Below, piece by piece: positions 6,839 through 56,456 of a stretch of 64,000 nt of DNA. Origin of the DNA: Alistipes sp. (GTDB lineage: Bacteria; Bacteroidota; Bacteroidia; Bacteroidales; Rikenellaceae); contig JAGBXX010000034.1 in NCBI GenBank assembly GCA_017629035.1, positions 39,032-103,031 of the forward strand, written 5' to 3'. The notes beneath the pieces were generated by a model. The model worked only from the letters and a program-made list of their open reading frames with translations. It was not told where the DNA came from and searched no databases. Within the stretch, counting starts at the first letter, position 1, and each line of letters starts with the position of its first letter. Made by a program: the position numbers and the translations under genes.

Positions 6839-8509
6839 CTACTTTTCTGATAGTGCTGCGACGAGAGCCGACACATCGACACTCTCCACACTCTTGATCT
6901 TAGTCTTGATATTATACTTAATCTTTGACACCGACACAGGATCGCTGTCAATAAATATAGCGATAGCACGGCTCGAGAAACCGGCAAACGAGTAGAGCGC
7001 CACACGATAGTCACGCTCGCTAAGCTTGGGTAGCAGCTGGCGCAATCTACGCATGAGGCCATCACGATACTCATCAACAGCACGCTCAAGCTCGGCAATA
7101 CGCGCCGAGTCGCTCTTCATAGCATCGATAGTCTCGGTGAGCTTGTTGAAGACCATGCTCTTATGACGTGATGAGCCGCTATGGTCGTAGTATATGTCGC
7201 AGAGTTCGTTGAGCTCGCTGAAGCGATCACGATATAGAGCTCCGAGCGACGACGAGAGCTCACGTGGTACATTATCCAGGGCAACCGATAGTTCGTGGAT
7301 AGTCTCGACATAGTGGGCTATGGCCTCGTTCTTGCGGCGCATACGACGCCACAACATATATCCAACAAAGAGGATGATAACCGATATAGAGCAATATATC
7401 AGCGTGTTACGCTGGCGCACAAGCCTACGCTCACGATTTGCGGCATCGACCGAGCGCTGCAACATCTCTATCTGAATATTGAGCACGGGCTGCTCGAGCA
7501 CCTTGATCATAAGGTCATCCTGCTGGTGCTTGCTCTTCTCCTCCCAGCGCAACGCCTCCTGGCTATCGCCAACATTGCGGTAGATGATATATCGAGCATA
7601 CTCCAGATCGGCCCAGTCAGCATCGGGCTCAGCCTCGGCACGCTCCACAATGGCGAGTGCCTCCTCCTTGCGACCCTCGTGCGAGAGAAGCATAGCCTGC
7701 ATAGCACTCATGTGCGCCTGGCCAAATAGCAAGCAGTCGTGCTCGGCAAAACGTGCTACATACTCCCTACACATATCATAGTCATTGAGATAGATAGTGA
7801 GGTCGAGCAACTCGTGCAGCACGGCACACATAAAGCGCTTATTATCAACCCTCACGCCATAGCTCAAAGCCTGATCGAGGGCACGTTTAGCCTGCCAGTG
7901 CTCACGCAGCTGGATATATGTTGCACCCATATCGTAGAGCACACTCGCACTGTGATACTCCATGCCGAGCTGGTCGAAACACTCCTTAGCCGCAGCATAC
8001 GACTCAAGAGCATTGGCAAAGAGGCAGCCTGCACCATAGATATCGCCCTCAGTACGAAGCACAAGTGCTTTAAGGCGTAGGTCATCGACATGCTCAAGGC
8101 GTTTCTTAGCCTCGATAAGAGCCAACATAGCCTCGGCAAGATAGTTCTGACCCTTGCGCTTAAGCACGAGCGAGTGCTGATACAGGGCACGAGCACACTC
8201 ATGGTCATACTCCGAGTTGAGATAGAACTCCACTGCCCCACGAGTGAGAGTGTCGGAGTCAGAGTCTATATAATTGTGATACAATACCTCGCTCTTAATC
8301 AGCTGATAGCGAGCTACATCGCGCTTACCACGCACCTTTTCGAAATCGACGCTATCAAGCACAGCAAGAGCCTCCTCGGGCGAATCTTGCGCAATACTCT
8401 CGGCACGCAACAGAAGGCTCATCGTGCCACTATCGGTCGAACAGCCAATAGCAAGGAGCACAACGCCCAGGGCAATGAAAATATTTAGGACTCTCTGTCG
8501 CATAATCAC
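6839..8509 (-). CDS. TPR-repeat membrane-anchored regulator with C-terminal HTH-like domain
   Basis: 556-residue protein of a layout common in Bacteroidota: signal peptide with lipobox AIGC (Cys23), about 300 residues of TPR-like helical repeats (roughly 40-340), one transmembrane helix (about 369-388), a coiled stretch (395-490), and a C-terminal helix-turn-helix-like end around LSERDYRVALYSFAGFSSRAIA (496 onward). TPRs would lie outside the inner membrane and the DNA-binding-like end in the cytoplasm, so it may pass a periplasmic signal straight to transcription. Both a lipobox and a membrane helix are present; whether the Cys is lipidated is unclear. It leads two small lipoprotein genes, its likely partners. 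Start ATG at 8509 or the ATG two codons later. Confidence 0.75.
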   Translation of the reverse strand: MIMRQRVLNIFIALGVVLLAIGCSTDSGTMSLLLRAESIAQDSPEEALAVLDSVDFEKVRGKRDVARYQLIKSEVLYHNYIDSDSDTLTRGAVEFYLNSEYDHECARALYQHSLVLKRKGQNYLAEAMLALIEAKKRLEHVDDLRLKALVLRTEGDIYGAGCLFANALESYAAAKECFDQLGMEYHSASVLYDMGATYIQLREHWQAKRALDQALSYGVRVDNKRFMCAVLHELLDLTIYLNDYDMCREYVARFAEHDCLLFGQAHMSAMQAMLLSHEGRKEEALAIVERAEAEPDADWADLEYARYIIYRNVGDSQEALRWEEKSKHQQDDLMIKVLEQPVLNIQIEMLQRSVDAANRERRLVRQRNTLIYCSISVIILFVGYMLWRRMRRKNEAIAHYVETIHELSVALDNVPRELSSSLGALYRDRFSELNELCDIYYDHSGSSRHKSMVFNKLTETIDAMKSDSARIAELERAVDEYRDGLMRRLRQLLPKLSERDYRVALYSFAGFSSRAIAIFIDSDPVSVSKIKYNIKTKIKSVESVDVSALVAALSEK

Positions 8510-15888: not shown

Positions 15889-16830
15889 CTATTTGAACAG
15901 AGCCACTAACTTGGTAAGTAGCTGTGCCACGATAGGCACATCGGAGCCACCGCCCCTGATCTTTGCACCACGCACAGCCTCGGCCAACCATGGATACTCC
16001 TTGAAGAGATCCAGACGGTAGAAGATAGAGTACCAGCCGGCTTGAATAAGTATGTCGTCAAAAATGCAAGCAACAGGGTTAACCTCCTGAGGCACATTGC
16101 AATACTTTTGATAGAGATCAATAAAGTTAAGCGCATACTCTCTTTTGCGCTTGCGACGCTGCTGGCTGGTGAGAGCCGTAGCCACACCCTTGCGATAGTG
16201 GTATATATCCTCATCGAGATATGCTACGCTCTTGGCAAGACCCACAATCTGTGTCGACACAAAGCAGTCCTCGGCATAGCCATACTTAGGCACAGCGATA
16301 TCGTTCTCTGTAAAGAGCGCTCGGCGCACACACTTGTTGCATAGTGTACCAAACGAGCGGTGGTTGTACATATTACGCACGTAGAGTCGCTGCTCACCAG
16401 CGCCATAGGCACGCTCCTTCTTCACACTTGAGCGTGTAGGATACTCCTTCACGTAGTTAAAGTATACGATATCTGCTCCACTCTCTGCAATCTTGGCTGC
16501 AATCTTAGCTATAGAGCCCTCCGAGAGCCAGTCGTCGGAGTCCACGTTGTAGATATAATCTCCCGTGGCGTGCTCCAGACCTGTGCGTCGTGCCGCAGGA
16601 AGACCTCCGTTGGCCTTGTGAACAATCTTGATCTGTGGGCGCAGGTGCTCATACTTCTGGGCAATAAGCTCCTCGAGAAGCTCGATAGAGCGATCCTTCG
16701 TGCCGTCGTTGACAAAGATAAACTCAATATGTGGATATGACTGTGAGAGAATGGAGTTGGCAAACTCTACAATATAGTTCTCCACACCATAGATTGGGGC
16801 AATAATCGAAATTGTAATATTCTGCTGCAT
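15889..16830 (-). CDS. Family 2 glycosyltransferase
   Basis: 313-residue GT-A fold transferase. It opens with ISIIAPIYGVENYIVEFANSILSQ, the usual GT2 start; the FVNDGTKDRS nucleotide-binding region and the metal-binding VDSDDW (Asp97, Asp99, Asp100) follow. The C-terminal third has a hydrophobic, membrane-associating character but no clear helix. It is the last gene of the minus-strand unit that starts with the second LicD gene, so it most likely adds a sugar to the same glycan that the phosphotransferases decorate. Confidence 0.9.
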   Translation of the reverse strand: MQQNITISIIAPIYGVENYIVEFANSILSQSYPHIEFIFVNDGTKDRSIELLEELIAQKYEHLRPQIKIVHKANGGLPAARRTGLEHATGDYIYNVDSDDWLSEGSIAKIAAKIAESGADIVYFNYVKEYPTRSSVKKERAYGAGEQRLYVRNMYNHRSFGTLCNKCVRRALFTENDIAVPKYGYAEDCFVSTQIVGLAKSVAYLDEDIYHYRKGVATALTSQQRRKRKREYALNFIDLYQKYCNVPQEVNPVACIFDDILIQAGWYSIFYRLDLFKEYPWLAEAVRGAKIRGGGSDVPIVAQLLTKLVALFK

Positions 16831-16839
16831 AAATACTTA

Positions 16840-17559
16840 CTACTTAAAGCTATAACCACCACTAATCTCCAAAACAGAGCCATTAACAAAGCCGTTGTTG
16901 ATGCAAAAACGCACCGCATCGGCCACCTCCTCAGGTGTTGCAAAACGCTTAACGGCGCTCTTGGCATAGATATTATCACGAATATGCTGTGGTTTTGTCG
17001 CCTGCCACTCTGTCTCGACAAAGCCTGGGGCAATGGCATTAACCGTGGTGTCGGTGCCCTCGAAACACTTCACGAGATTTAGCGCAAGGGCGTGCACCGC
17101 AGCCTTAGTAACACCATAGGCCAACGACGTGCCGTGAGGATATACACCCATCAACGAGCCAATGAAGATAATGCGGCTACCATTTGGGATACGACGATAT
17201 AGATCACGTATGAGATAGAGGCTACTATTAACATTCACCTGCATAGTCCTCTCCCAATCCTCATCGGTAATCGACTCGAGGTCGCAGCGCAGCGTTGCTC
17301 CTGCGTTGCAGACAATGCAATCTATGGTCTCAAGCTTTGCCATACGTGCCGCGAACTCACGCATAGCCATCTTGTCCGTCTGGTCGGCCTTGATTATCTC
17401 GAAGTGGGGCGACACCTTGGCGAGCTGCTCACGGCAATCATCCGCAGCCTTCTGGTCGTGGGCATAGGTAACAACGACATGGTAGCCCTCCTTGAGGAGC
17501 ATACGAGCCACTGCAAGGCCGATACCCTTTGTTGCACCCGTAACTATTGCGTTTCTCAT
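16840..17559 (-). CDS. SDR family oxidoreductase
   Basis: 239-residue short-chain dehydrogenase/reductase. TGATKGIG (7-14) binds NAD(P), NAGA lies near 85-88, and the catalytic set is Ser135, Tyr148 and Lys152 (YGVTK). It resembles FabG, but its place argues for a different substrate: its start overlaps the stop of the cytidylyltransferase/oxidoreductase fusion by four bases (ATGA), so the two are made together. A reductase beside a CDP-alcohol synthase usually makes the alcohol that is then activated, as in CDP-ribitol synthesis. That role is inference. Confidence 0.88.
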   Translation of the reverse strand: MRNAIVTGATKGIGLAVARMLLKEGYHVVVTYAHDQKAADDCREQLAKVSPHFEIIKADQTDKMAMREFAARMAKLETIDCIVCNAGATLRCDLESITDEDWERTMQVNVNSSLYLIRDLYRRIPNGSRIIFIGSLMGVYPHGTSLAYGVTKAAVHALALNLVKCFEGTDTTVNAIAPGFVETEWQATKPQHIRDNIYAKSAVKRFATPEEVADAVRFCINNGFVNGSVLEISGGYSFK

Positions 17560-18902
17560 AGTTCAAAGAAGTTAATACGATCGGTAAACTGCTGCATGAC
17601 ACGTGCCATGGCAATACTCTCCTGCGGACGCAGACGTGCCGAGGTAAGACGGTGGTTGATGATGCAGGCCACGAACTCCTGAAGCTCATATCTCAGGCCT
17701 GGCTCATCCCACTTATAGAAGTATTTCTTATTCTCGTTCTGATCCTCGTAGCGAAGCTCAAAATAGTCGGTCTTCCACCATGGCGAGGGGACATAGGCAT
17801 AGCCCTTAGTTCCCGAGATCACGAGGTTGCCCTCTGTCTTCACGCCCAGGCCGAGCTGGAACGAGGCAACGGCACTCTTATAACGCACAATACCTCGTGT
17901 ATATACATCCACACCATCGTCATTAAGACGGCTGTAGAGGTTGATATTCTCATACTCTGTGCCGAGCAGTCGCACAATAGGAAGGAGTGGATAGGAGCCC
18001 ATCTCGTAGATCGAGCCTCCCGCCTGCTTAGGGTCGAGCTCACGGCGCAGCTTATCCCTACCCCAGAGCTTTGACTCCGAGGCATCGATACCCACAACAT
18101 CGCCAATCAAGCCACTCTTAATCAGTGTTATAAGATGGTTAAACGCAGGGCAATATGCCGTCTTATTAGCCTCAACAAGCACCAGACCACGCTCCTCGGC
18201 AAGCGCAAATAGCTCCTTGGCATGAGCCTCGCTAAGCACCATAGGGGTCTCGCACAACACATGGCAGCCATGCTCCAGGGCATACTTAGCCTGAGTGTAG
18301 TGCATGAGATGTGGCGTAGCGATATATACCGCATCGACACTCTCGACAAGCTCCTCGAAGCTACTTGCAACCCTCGCACCCTCGGGGCATAGCTCCGCCG
18401 CAGCCTCCGCCGCAGTATCGTAGAGAGCCTCGATACGCACAGCATCGACCTTCTGCGACTCAGCAACAAGGCGTCGGGCGATACGTCCGCAGCCAACAAT
18501 ACCAAGGCGCACGATAGTCTCGCTCTCGGCACGCAGCATAGTCGACGAAACACCCTCGGTACGAGGCAGATATACCACATCGCAGAACTCTTTGAGGTAG
18601 TCGAACTTACCCTCCCAGTCCGAGCCTATAGCAAAGACATCGACATCGTACTTAAGTATGTCGTCTATCTTTTGCCCCACGTAGTCCTCGATAATCACCT
18701 GGTCTACAAAGCCTGTTGCCTTGACCGCCTCGACACGCTCAAGCACATTGTTACGCACATTGAGTTTACCACGGTCACGGTCAAAGCTATCGTTGGTAAC
18801 ACCCACGATAAGGTAGTCGCCAAGCTCCTTAGCTCGTCTAAGCAGGTTGACATGACCCTCGTGCAAGAGGTCGTAGGTGCCGTATGTAATAACTTTCTTC
18901 AT
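17556..18902 (-). CDS. Bifunctional fusion: glycerol-3-phosphate cytidylyltransferase-like domain + Gfo/Idh/MocA oxidoreductase
   Basis: 448 residues. Residues 1-125 are a TagD/GCT-type nucleotidyltransferase: HEGH at 14-17 is the HxGH active site and RTEGVSST (114-121) matches the C-terminal GCT signature. Residues 131-448 are a Gfo/Idh/MocA oxidoreductase with GIVGCGRIA at 134-142 binding NAD(P). Two usual residues of that family are changed: the EKP lysine is Thr219 (CETP), and the DxGxxxxH-type stretch reads YEMGSYPLLP. The domain may therefore use another mechanism or have lost activity. The fusion suggests that one polypeptide makes or modifies a phosphorylated alcohol and activates it with CTP. 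It sits between LicD and SDR genes in one operon. Confidence 0.88.
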   Translation of the reverse strand: MKKVITYGTYDLLHEGHVNLLRRAKELGDYLIVGVTNDSFDRDRGKLNVRNNVLERVEAVKATGFVDQVIIEDYVGQKIDDILKYDVDVFAIGSDWEGKFDYLKEFCDVVYLPRTEGVSSTMLRAESETIVRLGIVGCGRIARRLVAESQKVDAVRIEALYDTAAEAAAELCPEGARVASSFEELVESVDAVYIATPHLMHYTQAKYALEHGCHVLCETPMVLSEAHAKELFALAEERGLVLVEANKTAYCPAFNHLITLIKSGLIGDVVGIDASESKLWGRDKLRRELDPKQAGGSIYEMGSYPLLPIVRLLGTEYENINLYSRLNDDGVDVYTRGIVRYKSAVASFQLGLGVKTEGNLVISGTKGYAYVPSPWWKTDYFELRYEDQNENKKYFYKWDEPGLRYELQEFVACIINHRLTSARLRPQESIAMARVMQQFTDRINFFEL

Positions 18903-18911
18903 ACTAAAAGT

Positions 18912-19745
18912 TTATTTGCCAAAAAACTCCTCTATATACTCAGTCGAGTGCAGGCTACGTTTTATCTGCTCATCGCTGGGCAACTCACGCCAATTACCAT
19001 AGACATTGGTGAGGTAGGCATCGGTATTCTTCGGTGCAGGGAATTCGTGACCCTCGAACGAGATTGTCGTAAGAGGCAGAATATCTCGCTTAAAGAATTT
19101 GTGCTTAGCCCATCCTGTGCCCAAGGTATAGCGGTACTCGCCCTTGGGGTTAATCAAGCCCACAACCTTGAGTATCGGGTTGATAACTCCCAGACACAAC
19201 ACCTCGATAAGGCGAATAGCACATCGGCGCAATCGGCGGTTCTTGATATATATCGTGAGGTGCTCGGTATTGGCATATATAAAACGTGCCAACTTTGTGG
19301 CCACGAAGTTATTGCGCTCAATAGCAAAGACATCGATAAATGGCCCTCCCCATTTATAGTTCTGCCAGCGGCGATTGGTGACAGGTATCACTCTGCCATC
19401 CTGCTTGCGGAACTTGCCAAAGACATTTGTGTACTCAATATCGCTCTGCATGGTCTGGAACACAAAGCGTGGGTCGTTCATCTTTCGAAGCACTCTGGAG
19501 AGTCGTCGGTAGTCACGCTTAAACATCACTATATCGATATCATCGTCCCAGGGGATAAATCCCTTGTGGCGTGCTGCTCCAAGCAACGTGCCCGAGCTGA
19601 GCCACCACCTGATATTGTTCTTACGACAGATGTCGGCAAGCACAAGAAGTATCTCGAGCAGCTCCTTCTGATTCTCACGCAGCTTCGAGCCCTCGGGGTT
19701 AAAACGCTCAGTAAGCTGCTGGTTATCAACTAAATTTGGGGTCAT
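18912..19745 (-). CDS. LicD family phosphotransferase (copy 1)
   Basis: 277-residue member of the LicD family (nucleotidyltransferase fold), whose known members move phosphocholine or similar groups from a CDP-linked donor to a cell-surface glycan. The core is RWWLSSGTLLGAARHKGFIPWDDDID, about residues 44-70, with the acidic metal-binding cluster. The protein is closely related to the neighbouring copy along its whole length (both end LPSxEQIxRxxHxxEYI.E), so they are a duplicated pair. The fusion CDP-alcohol synthase follows after nine bases and is the obvious donor source. Confidence 0.9.
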   Translation of the reverse strand: MTPNLVDNQQLTERFNPEGSKLRENQKELLEILLVLADICRKNNIRWWLSSGTLLGAARHKGFIPWDDDIDIVMFKRDYRRLSRVLRKMNDPRFVFQTMQSDIEYTNVFGKFRKQDGRVIPVTNRRWQNYKWGGPFIDVFAIERNNFVATKLARFIYANTEHLTIYIKNRRLRRCAIRLIEVLCLGVINPILKVVGLINPKGEYRYTLGTGWAKHKFFKRDILPLTTISFEGHEFPAPKNTDAYLTNVYGNWRELPSDEQIKRSLHSTEYIEEFFGK

Positions 19746-19751
19746 AATCTT

Positions 19752-20594
19752 CTATTTATCCTGAACTCCGTATATCTCACGAATATATTCATTGCAGTGT
19801 ATGCAGCGTCGTATCTGCTCAGGGCTTGGTAGCTCACGCCAGTTGCCATAGACCTTTGTCAGGTAGGCATCCATATCCTTAGGCACAGGCAGTTCGACAC
19901 CCTCGAACTCTGCCGTAGCAAGAGGCATAGTATCGCTCATGAAGAACCTATGCTTGGCCCAACCCTGACCCAGTGAGTAGTGGTACTCGCCACGGGGGTT
20001 GATAAGTCCCACAAGACGCAACAGAGGGAAGATAAGAACAAACGAGAGCAACTCGATAAGACGAATAAGAGGCTTGCGGAGCCATCCCCAGCTAATATAC
20101 GACGTGAGGTGCTGGATATTGCCATAGATGGTGCTTGCCGCCTTGGCTGCAAAGAAATTTGTTTTCTCGATAGTGAATATATCGAAGCCTATGCCTCGCC
20201 ACTTGTAGTAGTTATAGCGCCTTGTCGACGACTCTACCCTACCCTCACGCTTGCGATATTTGGCAAAGCAGTTGACATACTCCACATCGCTACACACGGA
20301 GTGAAGCACAAACTCCTCGTTCTGCTCCTTGCGTAGTATACGCTCCAGACGACGATAGTCCTTGCGCAACATAACTATGTCGATGTCGTCGTCCCAGGGT
20401 ATAAATCCCTTGTGACGTGCTGCACCAAGCAGCGTGCCCGAGCTGAGCCACCACTTGATATCGTGCTCACGGCATATCTCGGCAACATGTTGCAACATAC
20501 GCAGCAACTCAAGCTGGTCGCTTCTGAGCCTTGAGCCATCGGGGTTGTAGCGTGCACGAAGTTGGGCCGCATCAAACATAAATCTACTCTCCAT
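19752..20594 (-). CDS. LicD family phosphotransferase (copy 2)
   Basis: 280-residue LicD protein and first gene of the five-gene minus-strand unit. It contains KWWLSSGTLLGAARHKGF followed by IPWDDDIDIVM, the nucleotidyltransferase signature. It matches copy 1 in order and spacing of all conserved parts, yet differs enough that the two may use different acceptors. Start at 20594 (an in-frame ATG five codons later is possible). Six bases separate it from copy 1. Confidence 0.9.
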   Translation of the reverse strand: MESRFMFDAAQLRARYNPDGSRLRSDQLELLRMLQHVAEICREHDIKWWLSSGTLLGAARHKGFIPWDDDIDIVMLRKDYRRLERILRKEQNEEFVLHSVCSDVEYVNCFAKYRKREGRVESSTRRYNYYKWRGIGFDIFTIEKTNFFAAKAASTIYGNIQHLTSYISWGWLRKPLIRLIELLSFVLIFPLLRLVGLINPRGEYHYSLGQGWAKHRFFMSDTMPLATAEFEGVELPVPKDMDAYLTKVYGNWRELPSPEQIRRCIHCNEYIREIYGVQDK

Positions 20595-20619
20595 TTCGGG
20601 GTCTCTTCATTAATATATG

Positions 20620-20666
20620 CAAAATTACACTTTTTTTCCCATTTGAGAATAATTTTCCTATCTTTG
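20620..20666. promoter_or_regulatory. Divergent promoter region, LicD operon and CDP-glycerol transferase gene
   Basis: Minus strand: TAATTTTG (20620-20627) fits the -7 consensus for the LicD operon. Plus strand: TATCTTTG (20659-20666) fits it for the glycerophosphotransferase gene. The -33 parts are not clear. The two units start back to back within 100 bases, which allows joint control. Confidence 0.5.
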
Positions 20667-20694
20667 TAGTAATAAATATTACTAAACCAAGATT

Positions 20695-21888
20695 ATGAAG
20701 AGAATTGGTGGTGCTATAGCCTGGGGTTTGAACCGAGCGATAAAGTCGCTGGGCAACCTACTATCATTGTTCGCACGCCTGGGTACTAAGGTTACTCCAG
20801 GCAGAGTGGTGTGCTGGGCATACAACTACAAACAATATGGTTGTAACCCTCGCTATCTCACCGAGTATCTACTTGAGCACTACCCAGATATGGAGATTGT
20901 ATGGGTATTCCGTCGTGGTGTCGATACCTCGGCTGTCGACCCTCGTGTCAAGTGCGTGAGGTTTCGCACGTGGGAGTACCTCAAGATGATCAACAGCGCA
21001 GAGTTCCTTGTGACAAACTCTCGCACCGACCCCTGGCATATCTACTGGCACAAACGCCCCGAGCAGAAGTATCTCATGCTCTGGCACGGAGGTGCCGCAC
21101 TCAAGCGCATAGAGCGTGATGTAGAGGAGAAGCTCGGCTTCAGCTACGTGCAGAAGGCCAAGCGTGACTCTAAGGTATGCAACCTTATGATCTCGGGATG
21201 CAGAGCCAACACCGAGCTTATAAAGCGCAGCTTCTGGTACTCGGGCGAGATTCTTGAGAGGGGTATTCCTCGCAACGACATATTCTTCGACACAACACGA
21301 CATAATGCTATACGTCAGCGCATTAACCGAGAGTATAACATAGCCCAGGATAGCCGCATAGTGCTCTACGCACCTACGTTTCGTCGTAGCGGCACACTCG
21401 AGCCATATCACATAGACTGGGACAAGATGCGCCCTGCGCTCAAACGTATATTGCAGTGCGACAATCTCACCGTCATCGTGCGCATGCACCCCAACCTTAT
21501 CAACAAGGTAGACACCTCGTCGCTTGTGAATTATGAAGGTGTTGTCGACGGCACACTCTACCCCGATATGCAGGAGCTGCTCTCGGCAAGCGACCTGCTT
21601 ATTACCGACTATTCAAGCTCGATGTTCGACTTCTCGATGCAGCGCCGCCCATGTCTGCTCTATGCCACCGACATTGAGCAGTACGACCGTGGCTACTACT
21701 ACGATTTCACCAAACTGCCCTACCCTTTGGCCCGCAACCAGGAGGATCTATTGCGCATAATAAGCGAGTTTAACAGCGAGGAGTACGGCTCACGCCTGGC
21801 AGATTTCTTGGACGACGAGCTCGGTATTGTGGAAAAGGGAGATGCAGCAAAAGCTCTTGCCGAATGGATGGTTAACTGCCGCAAATAG
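20695..21888 (+). CDS. CDP-glycerol glycerophosphotransferase family protein (TagB/TagF-like)
   Basis: 397-residue protein of the CDP-Glyphos_transf family, GT-B fold. Visible blocks are KYLMLWHGGAALKRIERD, NLMISGCRANTELIKRSFWY, the hinge VLYAPTFRRSG, VIVRMHPN, and the nucleotide-binding LLITDYSSSMFDF..RRPCLLYATDIEQYDRGYYYDF. Known members transfer glycerol phosphate or ribitol phosphate from the CDP form during teichoic acid synthesis. It has no membrane helix but an amphipathic, basic N-terminus, as in TagF-like enzymes. It lies divergent from the LicD operon that encodes a likely CDP-donor enzyme. Confidence 0.92.
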   Translation: MKRIGGAIAWGLNRAIKSLGNLLSLFARLGTKVTPGRVVCWAYNYKQYGCNPRYLTEYLLEHYPDMEIVWVFRRGVDTSAVDPRVKCVRFRTWEYLKMINSAEFLVTNSRTDPWHIYWHKRPEQKYLMLWHGGAALKRIERDVEEKLGFSYVQKAKRDSKVCNLMISGCRANTELIKRSFWYSGEILERGIPRNDIFFDTTRHNAIRQRINREYNIAQDSRIVLYAPTFRRSGTLEPYHIDWDKMRPALKRILQCDNLTVIVRMHPNLINKVDTSSLVNYEGVVDGTLYPDMQELLSASDLLITDYSSSMFDFSMQRRPCLLYATDIEQYDRGYYYDFTKLPYPLARNQEDLLRIISEFNSEEYGSRLADFLDDELGIVEKGDAAKALAEWMVNCRK

Positions 21889-21909
21889 AGAGTATTACGA
21901 CAAAATGAT

Positions 21910-21943
21910 AAAAGGTTGTCAGTCTTGTGGCTGACAACCTTTT
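21910..21943. terminator. Terminator, CDP-glycerol transferase / Stealth
   Basis: 13-pair stem AAAAGGTTGTCAG/CTGACAACCTTTT with an eight-base loop, A-rich before and T-rich after. It ends exactly one base before the stop codon of the convergent minus-strand gene. Confidence 0.88.
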
Positions 21944-22822
21944 CTATATCTCAAACTTTGATTTCTCGGGGAATATATCCTCAAAGACTCTATGCAACAT
22001 ATCGTGCATGGCTCTATACTGCTTATCGCCAAGTTGCACATCGTTGATGCAGACAAGGGCACGCTCAGGTGCTCGCAAATAGCTCTCGATCTTCTCGGGC
22101 GAGGCAACGGCCATGGAGAAGTGCTTACTGGGCTGGCGACGATTGATTATGCGACCCTTGAGATAGGCAAAATCGGTAAATAGATACTGCGTGATATTCT
22201 CCGCACGGCGTGTTCTGCTGAGTGTTGCGAGAATATCCTCCTTGACAGCCTCGTAGGCCTTGCTACACTCGCTACGAAACATCGGAGCGCAAATATGCTG
22301 AGGACGCAGGAAGCAGCACTTAGGCCTCATGCCCAGAGCCTTACGTGCAGCACGGTCGGAGTTACGGCATATCTTCTTGAACATATCCATAGAGAGCAGA
22401 TGTCTACTCATGCCGATAATGCCCCTACCCTCCTGGAAGAAGTCCTCGGCACGCATAGGCAGCATAGGGAATATATCGTCGTTGAAATAAAGGAACTCCT
22501 CGTCGAGATCCTTGATATTGAACATGTGAAGTTCTATGGTGTTGCTATTGAATGTTGGCAGATGCTCGGCAGGTATGATGTCGCTATGAAGCACAACATC
22601 TACCTCGTTGCGGTCCACCCACTCAGGCACCTGGCTCTGGGACGATACCACGAGGTGCACCTTGCGGATAAAGGGCATATTTCGCTCTATGCCACGAAAC
22701 AGATAGCGCAACGTGCCCCAATCACGAAAGCGCTTCGTGAGGATAGGGGTACTTGTAGTGCTCTCATACTGCTTCTGCCACAGGGGATCGAGTCCATTGA
22801 CAAATGTAATGACTATATCCAT
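21944..22822 (-). CDS. Stealth family sugar-phosphate transferase
   Basis: 292-residue Stealth protein. Conserved region 1 is DIVITFVNGLDPLW at the start. Region 2 runs from RFRDWGTLRYLFRGIERNMP through VVLHSDIIPAEHLPTFNSN to EEFLYFNDDIF (about 32-120). The later regions hold the expected HIC and FTDFAYLKGR segments. Characterised Stealth enzymes build capsules by moving a hexose-1-phosphate from a nucleotide sugar, making phosphodiester links. This fits the neighbouring LicD and CDP-glycerol-type enzymes. It is coupled (three bases) to the acyltransferase gene upstream. Confidence 0.92.
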   Translation of the reverse strand: MDIVITFVNGLDPLWQKQYESTTSTPILTKRFRDWGTLRYLFRGIERNMPFIRKVHLVVSSQSQVPEWVDRNEVDVVLHSDIIPAEHLPTFNSNTIELHMFNIKDLDEEFLYFNDDIFPMLPMRAEDFFQEGRGIIGMSRHLLSMDMFKKICRNSDRAARKALGMRPKCCFLRPQHICAPMFRSECSKAYEAVKEDILATLSRTRRAENITQYLFTDFAYLKGRIINRRQPSKHFSMAVASPEKIESYLRAPERALVCINDVQLGDKQYRAMHDMLHRVFEDIFPEKSKFEI

Positions 22823-22825
22823 AAA

Positions 22826-23776
22826 CTATTCAAGTGTTGACTTTCCAAATCTCTTGGCCTGCTTCTCGGGCGTATGCTTCCACCTGCGGTGCGACCACAT
22901 CCACAGCTCGGGAGTCTCACGTATCATGCTCTCAAGACGCTCGGCATAGCGACGCATAATCTCGTTCCTTGCCACCTGCTCCTGACCATCATAGATAAGC
23001 TCCATGGCTACACCATACTGACCCGCCCTGATGCGACGTATACGGCAGAAGTAGACTGGTAGCTTGAACTTTAGCGCCAGACGCTCGCCACCATCGACAA
23101 AGGCCGTGGGCTGGCCAAAGAACTCTATCCACTCGGTATCGGCCATAAGAATAGGGCTCTGATCCGAGATAAGTCCCAGGCCGATGCCATGCTCCGTGGA
23201 GCGATGCGTGATATAGTGACGCAGAGAGCTCTTCATAGGCACCTGATCGATATTCGGTGCGAACTGGCGGATGCGTCGGTAGTAGGCCTCGAAGACCTTG
23301 CTGCGCAGAGGATGGTAGACCGCCATAAACCTATCGCCCTCCGCCTCCCAGGCATACATCGGGAAATACTCCCAGCAGCCAAAGTGCGAGGCGAGAGCTA
23401 TCCAGTCACGGCCCGCAACAGCCTGGTGGTGCTCCGCGCCATTGTCCCACACTATATGCTTGCCACGGCTACGGTTGTCAATACCCGCCAAGCAGATGGT
23501 ATCAACAGCCACCTCCGAAAGTGTCGAATAGTAGCGGTTGCGAATCTTACGTAGCTCCGCCCTGGACTTCTCGGGAAATGCACCCTCGAGATTTGACATA
23601 ATCACACGTGAGCGGTAGCCGATAAGGCGAAATAGCAGAGTGACAAAGGGTTGGAAGATATAGAAGCGAAACCAACGGGGCGTAATACTCATCACTCGAC
23701 TAAAAGACCAAAGGAGTCCCAAGCCGAGGCGTTGAAGCAGGTTCAACTCTACGCTATTATGTTGTTTATCGCTCAT
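22826..23776 (-). CDS. LpxL/HtrB-like lipid A acyltransferase family protein
   Basis: 316-residue LpxL-type acyltransferase, which would add a fatty acid to lipid A or a related glycolipid at the inner membrane. The catalytic motif HFGCWE (His131-x4-Glu136) is intact. The N-terminal hydrophobic stretch (about 35-55) is the usual membrane anchor. ATG at 23776 is preferred, giving MSDKQHN; the frame is open eight codons further upstream. It heads a two-gene unit with the Stealth gene, which hints that the Stealth product decorates a lipid-linked glycan. Promoter at 23827-23858. Confidence 0.9.
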   Translation of the reverse strand: MSDKQHNSVELNLLQRLGLGLLWSFSRVMSITPRWFRFYIFQPFVTLLFRLIGYRSRVIMSNLEGAFPEKSRAELRKIRNRYYSTLSEVAVDTICLAGIDNRSRGKHIVWDNGAEHHQAVAGRDWIALASHFGCWEYFPMYAWEAEGDRFMAVYHPLRSKVFEAYYRRIRQFAPNIDQVPMKSSLRHYITHRSTEHGIGLGLISDQSPILMADTEWIEFFGQPTAFVDGGERLALKFKLPVYFCRIRRIRAGQYGVAMELIYDGQEQVARNEIMRRYAERLESMIRETPELWMWSHRRWKHTPEKQAKRFGKSTLE

Positions 23777-23826
23777 TTTCAACTGTTTGCTCAACAACAA
23801 GACGTTGTCGAGGGGTTCAATAGATG

Positions 23827-23858
23827 CAAATGTACTAAAAATTTATGCTTCGGGCAAA
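23827..23858 (-). promoter_or_regulatory. Promoter of the LpxL-like / Stealth unit
   Basis: -7 box TACATTTG (23827-23834) and -33 box TTTG (23855-23858) on the minus strand, 20 bases between them. The -33 box lies just before the end of the recX gene. Confidence 0.75.
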
Positions 23859-36834: not shown

Positions 36835-38823
36835 TTACTTCATTACCACGGGGCGCATCACGCCATCACGGCCAACGCTCATAAGCTGCATATTTGGTGA
36901 GCGTGACTCCCACTTCTCGATAAACTCCTCGATAGGACGAATATCCTCCATAGTCCACTCGTAGAGCTCCGACATCCACATTGGAGTTACATTACCCTTA
37001 TAGTCGAAGGCTGCGGCACAAGCGTAGTGTCCACCATAATCGTAGATACCCTCACTAATCTCGAATGGATCGCAAGTATCGATTAGCAAGTCGTAGAAGG
37101 TTGTATCGTAGCCACCCCAATCATAATCCATCTTTGAGATAAAGTATGAGAATATATCGCTTGTAGGCTGGCTGGTCTTAACCTCCATAGTCACGATATA
37201 CTGCGACGAATCGTAGTAGTATGGCTGAGTGTAGTACTTAAAGGTCACAGGGTCGTAGTTGTACAAGTCGGATGGACGGTAAGGGCCACCAACTATGACA
37301 TCTGTTACCTCCAACTCACACTCTCCCTCCTTTTCGGTCTTGAATACCTCGGAGCATACCTCGGTTGTCACAACACCACCGCTATAGCCGAATACAACAA
37401 TAACATACTCGGTATTTGGGTAGAGGGTATTCATGTGCGTTGTAATCTCACCCTTGAACTCATAGGTGTAGTAGATAAACTCACCCAAGGCATAATCCAA
37501 CAAAGTCTCATTGTCGTAGTCATCTGGCAAGTAAGATGTTGGGGTAATCATCAAGAGCCAAGTCTCATCAGGATTTGATGGAGTAATTCGAATATCTGCT
37601 ACACGTACATAGCAATTAGTAACCTCGATATCAAAGGCCATATCCGACTGACCCACCTCCTCGGTCGAGAAGTTGATATACGAAGGCTCGCCTACAACCT
37701 GCACAAAGCCATCATACTCCGCAACAGGATAGACAAGTGCTGAGTAGAGAACATAAGAGTCGAGCTGGAGCTCCAACGACATATCACCCTTGTAGCAGAT
37801 GTTGTCGAGAATATCCTGCATAGAGTGTCCTGCGCTGAGGTTCGAAGAGTATACATCGACCCACTCATCAGCAATCTCTGCCATATAATCATCGTCAAAC
37901 GATACACCCTCGCCCACATAGAGTTCGTTGTTAGCATCAACAACCTTCACGACATAGTAGCCATCCCAGCTATTAGCGTCGACATCGAGCGTAACCTCGG
38001 CACCCTTAACATCGACACTAAGGTCAAACTCTACATCCTGCAGTGGCGCACGATCGGGACATATCACCTCCCAGCTAATCTCTGTCTGAGGCTCATACGA
38101 CGCACCATCATCGGCGAACTTCACGCCATAGACATACAATACTGACTTAACACCTGGACGAACGCTATTCCACTGCACACGCTGCTTACCCTGGAAGAGG
38201 ACATTTGCTGCCTCCATATACTCCTTAAGGTTCATGCCATTGTTCAACGCAGCACTCTCGAATGCCGCAAGGTCATCCTCCCAAAGTTGCTCAGCAGTAT
38301 AAATCTGGTTGAACTGCATGTACGATACCTCGTCAAGGAACATGACATAGTGCATCTTGTCATCGGCAGGCGTCACCTGCGTGATAGCCGATGCTGCGTG
38401 CACCTCCTGAACGTCGATCTTGAACCAAGCATCGGGCTGAGGCTCCTCACTCACGCCTGCCTGCTTCACAGTAACCTCGACACTCTGCTCAGAGTAGCTA
38501 ATCTTGATCACTGCCTCGCGTGCATCACCCTCGTTCTTTGCAACGGCAAAAGCACCCAAATCTTCGGCATATAGTTCAATCCACTCAGCCTCGCAGTAGA
38601 GTGTTGGCACTGGCTGTGGCACAGGGCTATTGCGAGTAACCTCCTCGAGAGTCCACTCAATAAGACCCTCACCACCCTCAACGCCAAACTCCATAAGCTG
38701 AGATGAGGTAAGAACAAAGGTATACTCCTTTTGAGTATCATTAGTCGGATCATCTGGCTGACACGCCACAAACATGAGTGGCACAGCAGCTAAAGCCAAA
38801 AAAAGTCTAAACAACGCTCTCAT
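36835..38823 (-). CDS. BACON/Fn3-like repeat lipoprotein
   Basis: 662-residue predicted surface lipoprotein, lipidated at Cys21 (FVAC) with acidic residues right after (QPDDP). Residues about 33-125 are a BACON-like domain almost parallel to that of the upstream gene: GGEGLIEWTLEEVTR, AEWIELYAEDLGAFAV, EAVIKISYSEQSVEVTVKQA. Four beta-sandwich repeats follow, each with a helical insert; the third contains ADIRITPSNPDE and NTEYVIVVFGYSGGVVTTE, the signature also found in the 54-61 kb paralogs. It is the second gene of a two-gene unit (28 bases). The ligand is unknown. Confidence 0.75.
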   Translation of the reverse strand: MRALFRLFLALAAVPLMFVACQPDDPTNDTQKEYTFVLTSSQLMEFGVEGGEGLIEWTLEEVTRNSPVPQPVPTLYCEAEWIELYAEDLGAFAVAKNEGDAREAVIKISYSEQSVEVTVKQAGVSEEPQPDAWFKIDVQEVHAASAITQVTPADDKMHYVMFLDEVSYMQFNQIYTAEQLWEDDLAAFESAALNNGMNLKEYMEAANVLFQGKQRVQWNSVRPGVKSVLYVYGVKFADDGASYEPQTEISWEVICPDRAPLQDVEFDLSVDVKGAEVTLDVDANSWDGYYVVKVVDANNELYVGEGVSFDDDYMAEIADEWVDVYSSNLSAGHSMQDILDNICYKGDMSLELQLDSYVLYSALVYPVAEYDGFVQVVGEPSYINFSTEEVGQSDMAFDIEVTNCYVRVADIRITPSNPDETWLLMITPTSYLPDDYDNETLLDYALGEFIYYTYEFKGEITTHMNTLYPNTEYVIVVFGYSGGVVTTEVCSEVFKTEKEGECELEVTDVIVGGPYRPSDLYNYDPVTFKYYTQPYYYDSSQYIVTMEVKTSQPTSDIFSYFISKMDYDWGGYDTTFYDLLIDTCDPFEISEGIYDYGGHYACAAAFDYKGNVTPMWMSELYEWTMEDIRPIEEFIEKWESRSPNMQLMSVGRDGVMRPVVMK

Positions 38824-38850: not shown

Positions 38851-40635
38851 TTAGTTGTAGTAAGTCAAGATATTACCCTTGAACTCGATGGTTCTACCAT
38901 CAACTGTAACAAGGCGGACATTGTATGTATATAGGCCATTCTCCTTGCCAAGACCATTGTCTGAGTACTCGAATGTGAAGTCGTTGGTGTCGATATCAAT
39001 TTTTGACCCCTCATAGTTGATATAAGGCATGATAATCTTGCCGTTATAGAGGTTTACAACAAGCTCATTTTCATACTGGTCGTAGAAGTAGAAGTATCTA
39101 TCAACGCTCGACACCTTAATCATCTCTACATAGACTGGCGAGAATTTAAGTGGCTCAGCAACAACATCCTCAGCGTAGTTGATACCAGCAACGGCACCCG
39201 ACCACGAAAGCTCATAGATATTACCCTCGTAGACCCAGCTAAGCTCGAATGTAGTAGTGCCCGCCTCAAGGTCGTTTACGACAGTTGCCTGAGCACTTGT
39301 CACATCGCCATATACATCGCCATAGCCATGCACACAGTATGCTATGTCGATTGTGCCAGCTTCTGACGAGTAGTCGCCATCTGCCAAAGGCTTGCCAAGC
39401 AAGATATCATCCGACTTGAAACTGAACTTATGACCCGAGAACTCGTCGACCATGAAGAGGATATCTTTCTGGCCCGCCTTGTCGTAGTCAACCTTTGCCG
39501 ATAGAGCCTCAACAGTAAATGTCTTGCCCGTCTCCTTCTCATATACAAAGCCATCGACAACGCCAGTCCAATCAATAGTGATATGGTCACCCTGCTCTGA
39601 CTTGATATATCCAGTGATGGTTGTTGTGTTATCGGCATTGTGAACAAGCGTGATCTCAGCCTCCGTGAGCGAGCATGTCTGGTCGTTGCCAGTGCTAAAT
39701 GTCGACCATGAGCTGATAGTCTGCTGAGCATACGAGTATGTGCCAGCTGAGAGGAAATCGTCGTTAGGCGCTATCTCATCGAGCATATCGAGCTCGTGGT
39801 AGCGTGTGCCGTCGATATAGAGCTGAAGGAAGAAGTTACCAATCATGTAGTACTCAGCCTTCACACTAACAGGCTCAAAGGCAACAGGCTCACTCACAAT
39901 CTCCTGAACCATATTCTCTACCTCGCCACGATATGTATAGAGGAGCTCCTGGCCAGACTCAAGCGTAAGAGCGATGTCGAAGTCATACTCCTCGCCACTC
40001 AAGGCCACCTGGATGTCGCCATCAACGAACGCATACTCCTCACCGTCGATAGCAACAACGCTCATCTCAATATCAAGACCACCATTCTCAACGCTATATC
40101 TTCCTGCCTTAAGCACCTCATCCTCTTCAGCGCCAACAAGCAACAGACCGAGCTCGATACTCTCTGCCTCATCAGCAAATACAATAGCAAAGTTGTTTAG
40201 CTCAAGACCTGCATCCTGGCTCGAGAGGCGCTGGGCATAGTGTAGCTCCGTAGCCTTAGCCTCAGGCGCAGCCTGGCTGATAGCAACCTCAACAACCTGC
40301 TCAACGTATGTGATAGTAATCACAGCCTCACGTGCCTCACCCTCGTTAGGGGCAACAACAAAGGCTCCAAGCTGCTCAGTGCTGAGTGTAATCCACTCTG
40401 CCTGAGTAGCAAACATAAGCTCTGCCTCAGGATGTGGTTTAGTGCGTGTCACCTCGTTCAGAGTCCACTCAATAAGACCCTCGCCACCCTCGGCAGGGAA
40501 CTGCATAGAGGGCTGTGACGTAAGCTCAAATCTATACTCCTTAGCATCGGGAGTAGGCTCGTCGGGCGCACACGACACCAATGCAACAGTCGCAGCCACG
40601 AGCATAAGCATAAGATAGCGGAAAATGTTTTTCAT
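38851..40635 (-). CDS. BACON lipoprotein with a different repeat type
   Basis: 594-residue lipoprotein (Cys22, VSC, followed by APDEP). Its BACON-like N-terminal domain (about 30-125) is a close copy of that in the downstream gene. The rest differs: four repeats of about 110 residues, each opening with a strand pair, a G-x-Y turn (LKAGRYSVENG, LSAGTYSYAQQ, LADGDYSSEAG) and ending in a pattern such as ITIDWTGVV or YELSWSGAVAG. The same repeat type occurs in the lipoprotein at 61819-63102. The family appears to mix N-terminal and C-terminal modules. Promoter at 40698-40728. Confidence 0.72.
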   Translation of the reverse strand: MKNIFRYLMLMLVAATVALVSCAPDEPTPDAKEYRFELTSQPSMQFPAEGGEGLIEWTLNEVTRTKPHPEAELMFATQAEWITLSTEQLGAFVVAPNEGEAREAVITITYVEQVVEVAISQAAPEAKATELHYAQRLSSQDAGLELNNFAIVFADEAESIELGLLLVGAEEDEVLKAGRYSVENGGLDIEMSVVAIDGEEYAFVDGDIQVALSGEEYDFDIALTLESGQELLYTYRGEVENMVQEIVSEPVAFEPVSVKAEYYMIGNFFLQLYIDGTRYHELDMLDEIAPNDDFLSAGTYSYAQQTISSWSTFSTGNDQTCSLTEAEITLVHNADNTTTITGYIKSEQGDHITIDWTGVVDGFVYEKETGKTFTVEALSAKVDYDKAGQKDILFMVDEFSGHKFSFKSDDILLGKPLADGDYSSEAGTIDIAYCVHGYGDVYGDVTSAQATVVNDLEAGTTTFELSWVYEGNIYELSWSGAVAGINYAEDVVAEPLKFSPVYVEMIKVSSVDRYFYFYDQYENELVVNLYNGKIIMPYINYEGSKIDIDTNDFTFEYSDNGLGKENGLYTYNVRLVTVDGRTIEFKGNILTYYN

Positions 40636-54374: not shown

Positions 54375-56456
54375 TTACTCCACACGAGTAATCGTAGGCC
54401 TACACGCCGCAGACTCGGCAACGACCAACGATGCTGGCACATAGAGTGATGAACGAGTTGCGCTATTAAGCTCCTCAACAAGCGTGCGAAGCTCCTCGAT
54501 ATCGCTCTTATTCTCGGCTGTAGCACAAGCCAGGCTGCGGCCAATACCACCAATCTTACCGTTGGTATCTACGCAGTAAGCCAGAGCCGTCATAGCGACA
54601 TTCCACTCCGAGGTGTAGAAGCTATATGGCTGTGCCAGCTTACATGTTGCCCAATAGCCCGAAGCGAGTGTCCACAACTCGTTGTCTGGGTAGGCAACAA
54701 GACTCGTGCAATCACCCTCGAGCATGGTGGTAAAGAGCGTGCGGGCACTCTCGAGATCGGAGTACTTGACCACGACAATGGCCTTGCCTGCCGACATTGC
54801 AGCATTGCCAAAGATCGAGCCCGCCTCGTCATCACCCGAGTAGTAGCCCACAATCTCGACCTTTGGGGTTACGTCGCTAAGTGTCGAGGTGCGTGCCACG
54901 TTGTCAAACGTGAAGCTCTTGACGATCTTACCTGTGCGGCTATCCAGGGCGTAGATATAGGCCATGATATCAGTATCGGGCAGAAGTCCCGACACCATCA
55001 CGTTGCTCGTGCCGTTGTAGTAGTACTGATCGAGCACCTCGGCAATGGTTATGCTTGGATTGAAATCCTTAGAGCCCGCATAGTAGTAATCAAAGGCCTC
55101 CTGCTCCCAGGCCATATACTGCTCCTCGTTATACTCCGCAGGAACGCAAGCACCTGGAATATAGTAGATTGTAGGATCGGACGATGTGATATTCATATTG
55201 AAGCCATAGGGCGTAATACTGCTCACCGAGATCTGGAACTCCACCTCCTCGACATTGCCTCCGGGCAGCGTGCGGAAGGTCTTCATATATGCCTCGGTGG
55301 TGATACCGCCATCGTAGCCAAAGGCGATGATATAGTAGTCGGTATCTGCAGCAGGTAGCTTCATGGCGCTCGCTCCAGAGTGCTCAACAACACCCTTATC
55401 ATCGGCCATAACCTGCATCCAGCCACCCCACTGGTCAACAATCTGGTGCATAACCTCGTCAGCAGTAGAGCTACCATCCCAAGGCTGCACAAGTGCGCAG
55501 TAGAGCTCGTTGTTGTTAGATGGAGTGATGCGGAACGAGGCTTCCATCTGGCCAATATCCCACACCTCGATATCGAAGGTCATCTCCGACTTAGCAGCAC
55601 TCTGCGTAGTGTAGTTCGCCTTGCTGATATCCGTGCATATAACAATACCCTCAGAGTCCATGATAAGGCCCGCAACGAGGATTAGATAGTCGGTATTCTC
55701 GTTAAGTCCCGCAGCCTGAAGCTGAAGGCTACCCTGGTGGATAAGTGCCTCGATAATCTGCTCATCGGTATATCCAGCACCTCGATAAGCGTTGATATCC
55801 TGCTGGAAGAAGTACTCATAAAAATATCCCTCCGACATCTTATAACCATCCTCCGAGGTGACGTAGTAGTCGTAGGTCGCCTGAGGCATGGTGCAGAGAT
55901 ACCAGTATATCTCCTGATCCGAGGGCGTCACGCTGATAGTCACGCTATTGTCAACAACCTCGGTTGCCACCTCAAAGCTACAATTGCTCTTCTCCACAGC
56001 TAAGGTCTTGAATGCAACCTTCGTAAGCTCTGTGCAGGCCTCGTACTTGTCATCTACACCAAATACCAAGATATAGTACTCCGTATCGAGCGACAAGCCA
56101 GAGAAGGTAGCGCCCTCAATAGCACCATTATCCACCACCGAGGGCATATACTCTGCAAGAGTAAGACCCTTAGATGATGCCTCATCTGCAAGCTCCTGAA
56201 ACAGAGTAGCAATGACGAACTTCTCCTGCGTAAACTCATCGACCACGCTACGCTCCTCAACGACGCAGATATAGTCCGCAATCTCCTCAGAGGGAGCAAT
56301 GCTTACGGTAACGGTAGAGCGTGTAACACCGTCAATATTTACACGGAAATCAGGATGTGGTGTAGGGGGTGGCGGTGGGTCGACATCGACACCACAGGCA
56401 ACTACGATAACCATCGCAGCAACCATAGCCCACAATTTTGAAAATAGATTTCTCAT
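54375..56456 (-). CDS. Repeat lipoprotein, paralog 1 of 3
   Basis: 693-residue predicted surface lipoprotein (lipobox VVAC, Cys21; acidic and Pro-rich linker VDVDPPPPPTPHPD). Four beta-sandwich repeats of 110-135 residues follow, each with the pattern strand - xITPSxx - helical insert (such as FVIATLFQELADEASSKGLTLAEYMP) - DTEYYILVFGVD. The C-terminal module of about 160 residues begins VTPKVEIVGYYSGDDEAGSIFG and is shared with the next two genes. No BACON domain. The mature part is very acidic. I do not know the family; Fn3-like repeats in such proteins usually bind glycans or host proteins. Confidence 0.72.
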   Translation of the reverse strand: MRNLFSKLWAMVAAMVIVVACGVDVDPPPPPTPHPDFRVNIDGVTRSTVTVSIAPSEEIADYICVVEERSVVDEFTQEKFVIATLFQELADEASSKGLTLAEYMPSVVDNGAIEGATFSGLSLDTEYYILVFGVDDKYEACTELTKVAFKTLAVEKSNCSFEVATEVVDNSVTISVTPSDQEIYWYLCTMPQATYDYYVTSEDGYKMSEGYFYEYFFQQDINAYRGAGYTDEQIIEALIHQGSLQLQAAGLNENTDYLILVAGLIMDSEGIVICTDISKANYTTQSAAKSEMTFDIEVWDIGQMEASFRITPSNNNELYCALVQPWDGSSTADEVMHQIVDQWGGWMQVMADDKGVVEHSGASAMKLPAADTDYYIIAFGYDGGITTEAYMKTFRTLPGGNVEEVEFQISVSSITPYGFNMNITSSDPTIYYIPGACVPAEYNEEQYMAWEQEAFDYYYAGSKDFNPSITIAEVLDQYYYNGTSNVMVSGLLPDTDIMAYIYALDSRTGKIVKSFTFDNVARTSTLSDVTPKVEIVGYYSGDDEAGSIFGNAAMSAGKAIVVVKYSDLESARTLFTTMLEGDCTSLVAYPDNELWTLASGYWATCKLAQPYSFYTSEWNVAMTALAYCVDTNGKIGGIGRSLACATAENKSDIEELRTLVEELNSATRSSLYVPASLVVAESAACRPTITRVE

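Follow-up and report, generated by a model that had tools for sequence, protein, structure and literature searches.

What might a Gram-negative gut bacterium do to its surface with a set of genes that pairs a putative maker of cytidine diphosphate (CDP)-activated alcohols with several phosphodiester-forming transferases and a lipid A acyltransferase homologue? This combination lies at positions 15,889 to 23,776 of a 64,000-nucleotide stretch (the window) of contig JAGBXX010000034.1 from Alistipes sp. (GCA_017629035.1; 1.80 Mb, 41 contigs, 84.7% complete). A preliminary description, made from the letters alone, had placed eight adjacent genes of named families here, and both place and families are borne out: all eight open reading frames (ORFs) are open, and each protein has a Pfam match above the curated cut-off (Table 1). 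The set is not a single operon, as the TagF/TarF-like gene at 20695-21888 lies on the plus strand and the other seven on the minus strand. These seven form one group of two LicD genes, a TagD-Gfo/Idh/MocA fusion (hereafter the fusion), a short-chain dehydrogenase/reductase (SDR) and a family 2 glycosyltransferase (GT2), with gaps of 6-9 bp and one 4-bp overlap, and a second group of LpxL and Stealth with a 3-bp gap. Among the NCBIfam matches listed, no equivalog exceeded its cut-off for any of the eight proteins (for the SDR, among the best 25 of 231 matches). Our preferred reading, about which we remain almost evenly divided, is that the genes would form a relocating cassette for remodelling lipooligosaccharide (LOS) by adding phosphodiester-linked groups, with reactions, acceptor and alditol all deduced; what was observed is the gene content, the recurring neighbourhood, the co-occurrence of the genes and the lack of canonical lpxL where it normally sits.

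Searching species genomes with the fusion returned at least 592 matching stretches, at least 584 of which encode a relative (the tblastn criterion admits partial relatives), and we compared the neighbourhoods of the best 80 of these at least 584, all near full length. Twenty-four of them (L036-L058 and L067), termed Alistipes-type, were chosen by closeness of their neighbours once these were known and partly overlap the same-genus genomes considered below; their entries comprise 14 Alistipes sp. (all from ruminant cecum, colon or rectum), 2 Rikenellaceae and 8 others. The shared neighbourhood for which the preliminary description had suggested looking is present: homologs are not scattered, the families recur near the fusion, and close relatives of other cassette genes are recognised in every Alistipes-type locus except L055, which holds fusion and SDR only. 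The gene directly after the fusion encodes an SDR at 62 of the 80 loci, made up of 22/24 Alistipes-type loci (7 with a type A and 15 with a type B SDR) and 40/56 others. LicD relatives are found at 20 and TagF-like relatives at 17 of the 24, with distant ones at 29 and 19 of the other 56, where no listed match to Stealth, LpxL or the TagF-like protein exceeds 38%. All seven type A loci carry two LicD genes, like the window, and five of the seven are without a TagF-like gene in the examined flank. Neighbourhood counts are lower bounds, the gene picker having at times taken a long antisense frame over the true gene (L056, L057), and flank counts are limited by several loci that end at contig borders.

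The eight genes are a recurring cassette found at several chromosomal addresses. In the window and L036 it sits between lptB-aroA-aroC-prmC-recX and a lipocalin gene, in L045, L046, L047, L049 and L052 beside prsA-, yihA-, lnt- and folC-like genes, and in L041, L043 and L044 beside a plsX-like gene; L037/L039 and L038/L040 present two further neighbour sets. The names of the flanking genes (RsmI, GT2b, Dpm1, MazG, PrsA, YihA, Lnt, FolC and PlsX) were assigned by eye. Because the fusion itself is common, the special part is the gene combination. This combination, the fusion class and the exchange of LpxL described below are new, while the families are already known; a survey of open-access literature, judged mostly by titles and abstract starts, returned no account of this cassette, of the fusion or of its activity.

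We next consider 61 same-genus genomes, the window's own included. The fusion is present in 14 of these at 69% identity or more and in 11 at 78% or more, and LicD at 57% or more occurs in exactly those 11. LpxL-B, as we call the cassette-linked acyltransferase paralogue, is found in the same 11 plus G017 and G050, giving 13 genomes. Stealth (at least 56%) occurs in 18/61, including 10 of the 11 fusion genomes, and the TagF-like protein (at least 58%) in 9/61, namely 8 of the 11 and G006. Fisher tests of co-occurrence with the fusion, which ignore kinship, gave 2e-12 for LicD, 2e-10 for LpxL-B, 5e-6 for Stealth and 5e-7 for the TagF-like protein. On a RecQ tree of 59 of the genomes the cassette trait requires at least seven changes and sits in two separated clades, suggesting, within the limits of a single gene tree, that the cassette was repeatedly gained or lost; independent-pair tests of the trait yielded four supported pairs, too few for significance. 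G006 (L132) carries TagF-like, GT2 and Stealth genes around a TagD-like gene that stands alone (131 aa), and none of fusion, LicD, LpxL-B or type A/B SDR adjoins them. Its outer neighbours, f12 and f21 (the latter another SDR by eye), are those of the L037/L039 address, and a second TagD-like gene elsewhere in G006 adjoins a distant LicD. As the standalone TagD here replaces the fusion, the donor-making slot of the cassette appears exchangeable, with cassette-type LicD going with the fusion.

The acyltransferase provides the link to lipid A. LpxL-B is the only PF03279 match found in its own, incompletely assembled genome (84.7% complete), and its HFGCWE fits the HX4E motif of the family. In an LpxL tree covering the loci collected by that point rather than all 13 LpxL-B genomes (which were recognised by having Stealth or another cassette gene next to LpxL-B), the window copy and 14 cassette-linked copies lie on one side of a branch supported at 100/98, apart from the copies at rsmI-lpxL-GT2 sites; percent identity fails to separate LpxL-B (49-58%) from canonical LpxL (up to 50%). 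At each of eight loci examined around an LpxL match outside the cassette, lpxL adjoins the same GT2 gene downstream of rsmI, either directly after rsmI (G002, G046, G039, G011) or with about 1.4 kb between them (G012, G053, G059, G022). The rsmI site is readable in 11 of the 13 LpxL-B genomes (all but G034 and G050), and lpxL is missing there in nine of the 11, the window's own genome included. Accordingly sized gaps separate rsmI from GT2b: 928-930 bp in G011 and G039, and at most 180 bp in the nine lpxL-less genomes (two overlaps by the start-codon rule). Counted by matches, canonical LpxL is present in 2/13 LpxL-B genomes versus LpxL in 45/48 others (Fisher 6e-8, inflated by kinship). LpxL-B seems to replace canonical lpxL, and we read it as the working lipid A late acyltransferase in its own genome; its apparent substitution for the ordinary lpxL points to lipid A/LOS. 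The view of LpxL-B as an accidental housekeeping neighbour was rejected in part, the canonical site being without lpxL here.

The Bacteroides LpxL, BT2152, offers a comparison: most Bacteroides likewise have a single PF03279 protein per genome, and deleting the single LpxL of Bacteroides thetaiotaomicron removes one lipid A acyl chain (PMC5850320). Unlike BT2152, which it resembles by description rather than by direct sequence comparison, LpxL-B adjoins glycan genes, away from the rsmI-lpxL-GT site of related genomes. An alternative that we consider rather improbable is that the product of the cassette is a phosphorylated glycolipid or sphingolipid head group, LpxL-B acylating this lipid instead of lipid A. 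LpxL-B is below the NCBIfam LpxL-type cut-offs among the matches listed, scoring 48.4 bits against 297.8 for TIGR02207, a model with which Bacteroidales LpxL proteins were not scored. Mf1, a relative of LicD, uses a glycolipid as the acceptor for phosphocholine (PMC11982090), and in Caulobacter a CDP-glycerate maker serves a sphingolipid head group, although that enzyme, CpgD, is not homologous to TagD (PMC12275187). Against this alternative, it would leave nine genomes without a recognised lipid A late acyltransferase. As a separate observation, G003, G006, G027, G028 and G036 each carry a tandem pair of LpxL-family genes with about 100 bp between them.

What donor might such a cassette use? 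The N-terminal half of the fusion finds its best solved-structure matches in TagD/TarD and shares about 50% identity with the TagD-like proteins of G006, which speaks for CDP-glycerol. This ordinary chemistry, with CDP-glycerol as the product of the fusion and glycerol-phosphate as the only group that the transferases add, fits any acceptor. The fusion reaches only 126 bits against the cut-off of 165.4 of the glycerol-3-phosphate cytidylyltransferase equivalog TIGR01518, however, and its reductase domain and the SDR have no evident role in converting glycerol-3-phosphate to CDP-glycerol. The loop RGKLNV is present in the window and in 5/5 other fusion rows and in 0/6 non-fusion rows (1coz, 2b7l, two from G006, one each from G053 and G017). 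GSDW likewise appears in the window and the five fusion rows, instead of the G[DH]DW of 1coz, 2b7l and the G006 rows, but is not specific to fusions, being present in a distant standalone relative in G017, which favours CDP-glycerol. R44, G45, K46 and S94 are invariant in an alignment of 34 fusion rows, and these positions may play a role near the active site. The missed TIGR01518 cut-off and the SDR that comes next in most loci suggest that the fusion product is probably other than plain CDP-glycerol, and we regard the CDP-glycerol alternative as quite unlikely.

The C-terminal half belongs to the Gfo/Idh/MocA family by PF01408 (78.3 against a cut-off of 24 bits) and is closest by sequence, among solved chains, to 3e9m. 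Of 87 rows, 80 have T at position 219, the lysine site of the EKP motif, 6 have I and 1 has K; K247, E300 and Y304 are invariant in all 87. We infer from this pattern a working but altered enzyme, and a probable CDP-alditol synthase. A Protein Data Bank search with the SDR returned FabG-like and other generic reductases. As neither SDR type follows the fusion in 18 of the 80 loci, the fusion may be enough by itself at these, with the SDR perhaps setting stereochemistry, or a distant reductase may act.

Proteins of known activity provide precedents for this chemistry with other parts. Bcs1, the CDP-ribitol synthase of Haemophilus influenzae, differs in its domain families from the TagD-type PF01467 plus Gfo/Idh/MocA arrangement of the cassette fusion. 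It is alike in that one protein reduces a ketose phosphate and carries out activation with cytidine triphosphate (CTP), giving a CDP-alditol for a phosphodiester glycan (PMC10299916). Campylobacter jejuni HS5.18/HS5.17 and pneumococcal Mnp1/Mnp2, which make CDP-6-glucitol and CDP-mannitol, similarly perform cytidylyl transfer and then NADPH-dependent reduction of an open-chain sugar; theirs are PF01128 and PF01370 proteins (PMC10918830), whereas the cassette has PF01467 and PF01408 plus a separate SDR, and PF01128 found no match in the fusion at E 0.01.

Turning to the transferases, the two LicD proteins are 59% identical to each other and share PF04991 with the LicD/fukutin-related protein (FKRP) family, LicD 2 having a short match to FKRP structures (E 3.9e-7); they fall below the Mf1 equivalog cut-off (77 and 72 bits against 225). 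Fusion and LicD occur without a TagF-like gene in the five type A loci mentioned above and in G058, G011 and G034, across whose whole genomes no TagF-like match was found at E 1e-20, making LicD the likely user of the fusion product. In G039 (98% complete) and G040 (97%), the matches to the fusion query are the fusion and one Gfo-type stretch, with no standalone TagD listed, so that the TagF-like proteins there probably use the fusion product too, unless another CDP-alcohol maker exists. A third LicD protein of the window's genome, on contig C16 (L003 1390-3213), has a GT2-like second half and lies downstream of an acyl-protein-synthetase-like gene, both by eye.

The TagF/TarF-like protein matches the TagF structure (E 2.6e-42), and like wall teichoic acid systems the cassette thus holds counterparts of TagD/TarD (in the fusion) and TagF/TarF. 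Unlike in those systems, both proteins miss their NCBIfam equivalog cut-offs (for TarF, NF041712, 171.8 bits where 550 are required), and the eight genes include none for a primer, an exporter or a polymer. For these reasons "teichoic-acid-like", the term first applied to the locus, overstates the likeness. The Stealth protein matches the structures of 7dxi, GNPTAB and CpsY; its conserved region CR2 is above cut-off, CR1 and CR4 are below, and CR3 is unmatched. By eye, a 640-aa protein with Stealth-like and GT2-like halves lies near LpxL-B and Stealth in L126 and L127 (G017 and G050), and at the same chromosomal site in L126 Stealth is followed by a small HSD/HTN-repeat protein and then a radical SAM-SPASM-like protein, possibly for a modified peptide. 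Elsewhere, at G047:C2:174891-176214, a partial Stealth-like match (43%) adjoins a very divergent LpxL-family match (23%).

The set lacks a flippase, polymerase or priming transferase, as remarked on at the outset, and across related loci no export gene is conserved in the cassette. Within 6 kb of the fusion, 19 of the 24 Alistipes-type loci encode no protein of five or more predicted spans, and the remaining five hold four different multi-span proteins, one of them shared by L057 and L058, a count subject to the limits of the gene picker and of contig borders. With no export gene in the set, the acceptor would most likely be lipid A-core at the cytoplasmic face, exported by the ordinary lipopolysaccharide (LPS) route. 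The B. thetaiotaomicron cluster BT3362-BT3380 is likewise, by description and without sequence comparison, an LOS glycan cluster without a repeating unit; unlike in the cassette, LicD has 0 occurrences in the text of its account (PMC5850320). Decoration of a capsule or exopolysaccharide assembled by genes elsewhere is an alternative we judge unlikely. It draws on the genome's single priming transferase (its only PF02397 match, on C33 and not the window's contig), on the LicD protein with the GT2-like half on C16, and on the distant LicD or TagF-like relatives near the fusion in 37 of the 56 other loci among the best 80. Set against these are the lack of any PF04932 match in the genome (84.7% complete, and a model that may miss the family) and flanking genes that, where named by eye, are housekeeping genes, most being unannotated.

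Returning to the LOS-remodelling cassette, its physical coherence and the LpxL exchange have to be weighed against several observations that speak the other way. Linkage is loose: of the 24 loci, 14 have Stealth within the flank and 9 have LpxL there. Fusion and LpxL-B are close in five of the 11 genomes (G000, G058, G045, G034, G051); the two are clearly separated in G039 and G040 and sit on different contigs in G011, G021, G024 and G035. G017 and G050 possess LpxL-B and Stealth without LicD or the fusion. G011 and G039 keep both LpxL-B and canonical lpxL, and an LpxL match is absent from three of the 48 genomes without LpxL-B (G016, G041, G043), the rsmI site of most of the other 45 being unread. 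The single-gene tree gives three well-supported independent contrasts for the replacement, all one way or neutral, with a sign test of p>=0.25. Furthermore, the second LpxL/LpxM homologue of Bacteroides vulgatus, in an aryl polyene cluster, is thought to serve aryl polyenes (PMC5850320).

This loose linkage between LpxL-B and the fusion also suits an explanation in which LpxL-B is a mere neighbour and the cassette attaches phospho-alditol or glycero groups to the general protein O-glycan of Bacteroidota or to some other glycan linked to undecaprenyl. Bacteroidota O-glycans rarely carry phosphate, glycero or sugar-alcohol groups, and Fibrobacterota share the motif enrichment, according to a 2025 review (PMC12871550); relatives of the fusion, among the matches listed, include Bacteroidales and Fibrobacter entries. 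The same review gives metG and wzx at the locus as the criterion for a Bacteroidota O-glycan (LFG) locus, and neither was seen among the eight genes and two neighbours in a Pfam scan, no family-model search having been aimed at them. Neither is a multi-span protein conserved near the fusion, and LpxL-B apparently takes the place of canonical LpxL. We consider this explanation unlikely, if worth keeping in view.

Under the LOS-remodelling scheme, the TagD-like half of the fusion would couple CTP with a polyol phosphate or ketose phosphate that is not sn-glycerol-3-phosphate, and the Gfo/Idh/MocA half, followed by the SDR, would reduce or re-set a carbon to yield a CDP-alditol. LicD, together with the TagF/TarF-like protein where present, would then transfer alditol-phosphate to a sugar hydroxyl as a phosphodiester, GT2 may add a sugar and Stealth a sugar-1-phosphate, while LpxL-B would add a secondary acyl chain to lipid A instead of canonical LpxL. 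The fuller proposal is possible but doubtful: that an exchangeable Alistipes-like cassette places a non-glycerol alditol-phosphate on LOS by a new TagD-Gfo/Idh/MocA class of CDP-alditol synthase while exchanging the late acyltransferase of lipid A, with surface charge and lipid A acylation then switching jointly. The gut contains abundant Bacteroides LPS, and its sensing by host TLR4 is influenced by the acylation of lipid A (PMC5850320). If true, the coupling of an exchanged LpxL with phosphodiester decoration in one cassette would allow such surface variation to be read from genome sequences, and could change host sensing of these gut microbes. Given how widespread relatives of the fusion are, naming its product could name a common gut CDP-alditol.

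Table 1. Cassette genes and promoter-like elements, in window coordinates
Feature	Position	Strand	Evidence and remarks
GT2 glycosyltransferase	15889..16830	-	PF00535 107 bits; 3' of SDR in many related loci
SDR reductase, type A	16840..17559	-	PF13561/PF00106 142/139 bits; YGVTK fits YxxxK motif
Fusion: TagD-like cytidylyltransferase (~aa 1-126) + Gfo/Idh/MocA oxidoreductase (~aa 130-440)	17556..18902	-	PF01467 65.6 bits, PF01408 78.3 bits, PF22725
LicD phosphotransferase 1	18912..19745	-	PF04991 136.1 bits (cut-off 22.6); PWDDDID motif
LicD phosphotransferase 2	19752..20594	-	PF04991 129.8 bits (cut-off 22.6); PWDDDID motif
TATCTTTG, -7-element-like	20659..20666	+	28 bp 5' of the TagF/TarF-like gene
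CDP-glycerol:glycerophosphotransferase-family (TagF/TarF-like) transferase	20695..21888	+	PF04464 246 bits (cut-off 22.1)
Stealth-family sugar-phosphate transferase	21944..22822	-	Stealth_CR2 110 bits
LpxL-B, late-acyltransferase paralogue	22826..23776	-	PF03279 84.2 bits (cut-off 22.3); TTG start possible at 23800
Promoter-like site upstream of LpxL-B	23827..23858	-	TTTG-N17-23-TAnnTTTG pattern

Two promoter-like elements accompany the genes. The element TATCTTTG resembles the Bacteroidetes -7 element, and the two-part promoter pattern has no match at that site. This Bacteroidetes-type pattern, TTTG-N17-23-TAnnTTTG, occurs at 10 sites in the window, where 0.78 would be expected, and every one of them lies on the minus strand. 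Elsewhere in the window, six of ten long ORFs scanned (556-764 aa) have no Pfam match at E 1e-5; all six are on the minus strand, at 6839-8509, 36835-38823, 38851-40635, 54375-56456, 56524-58818 and 59257-61455.

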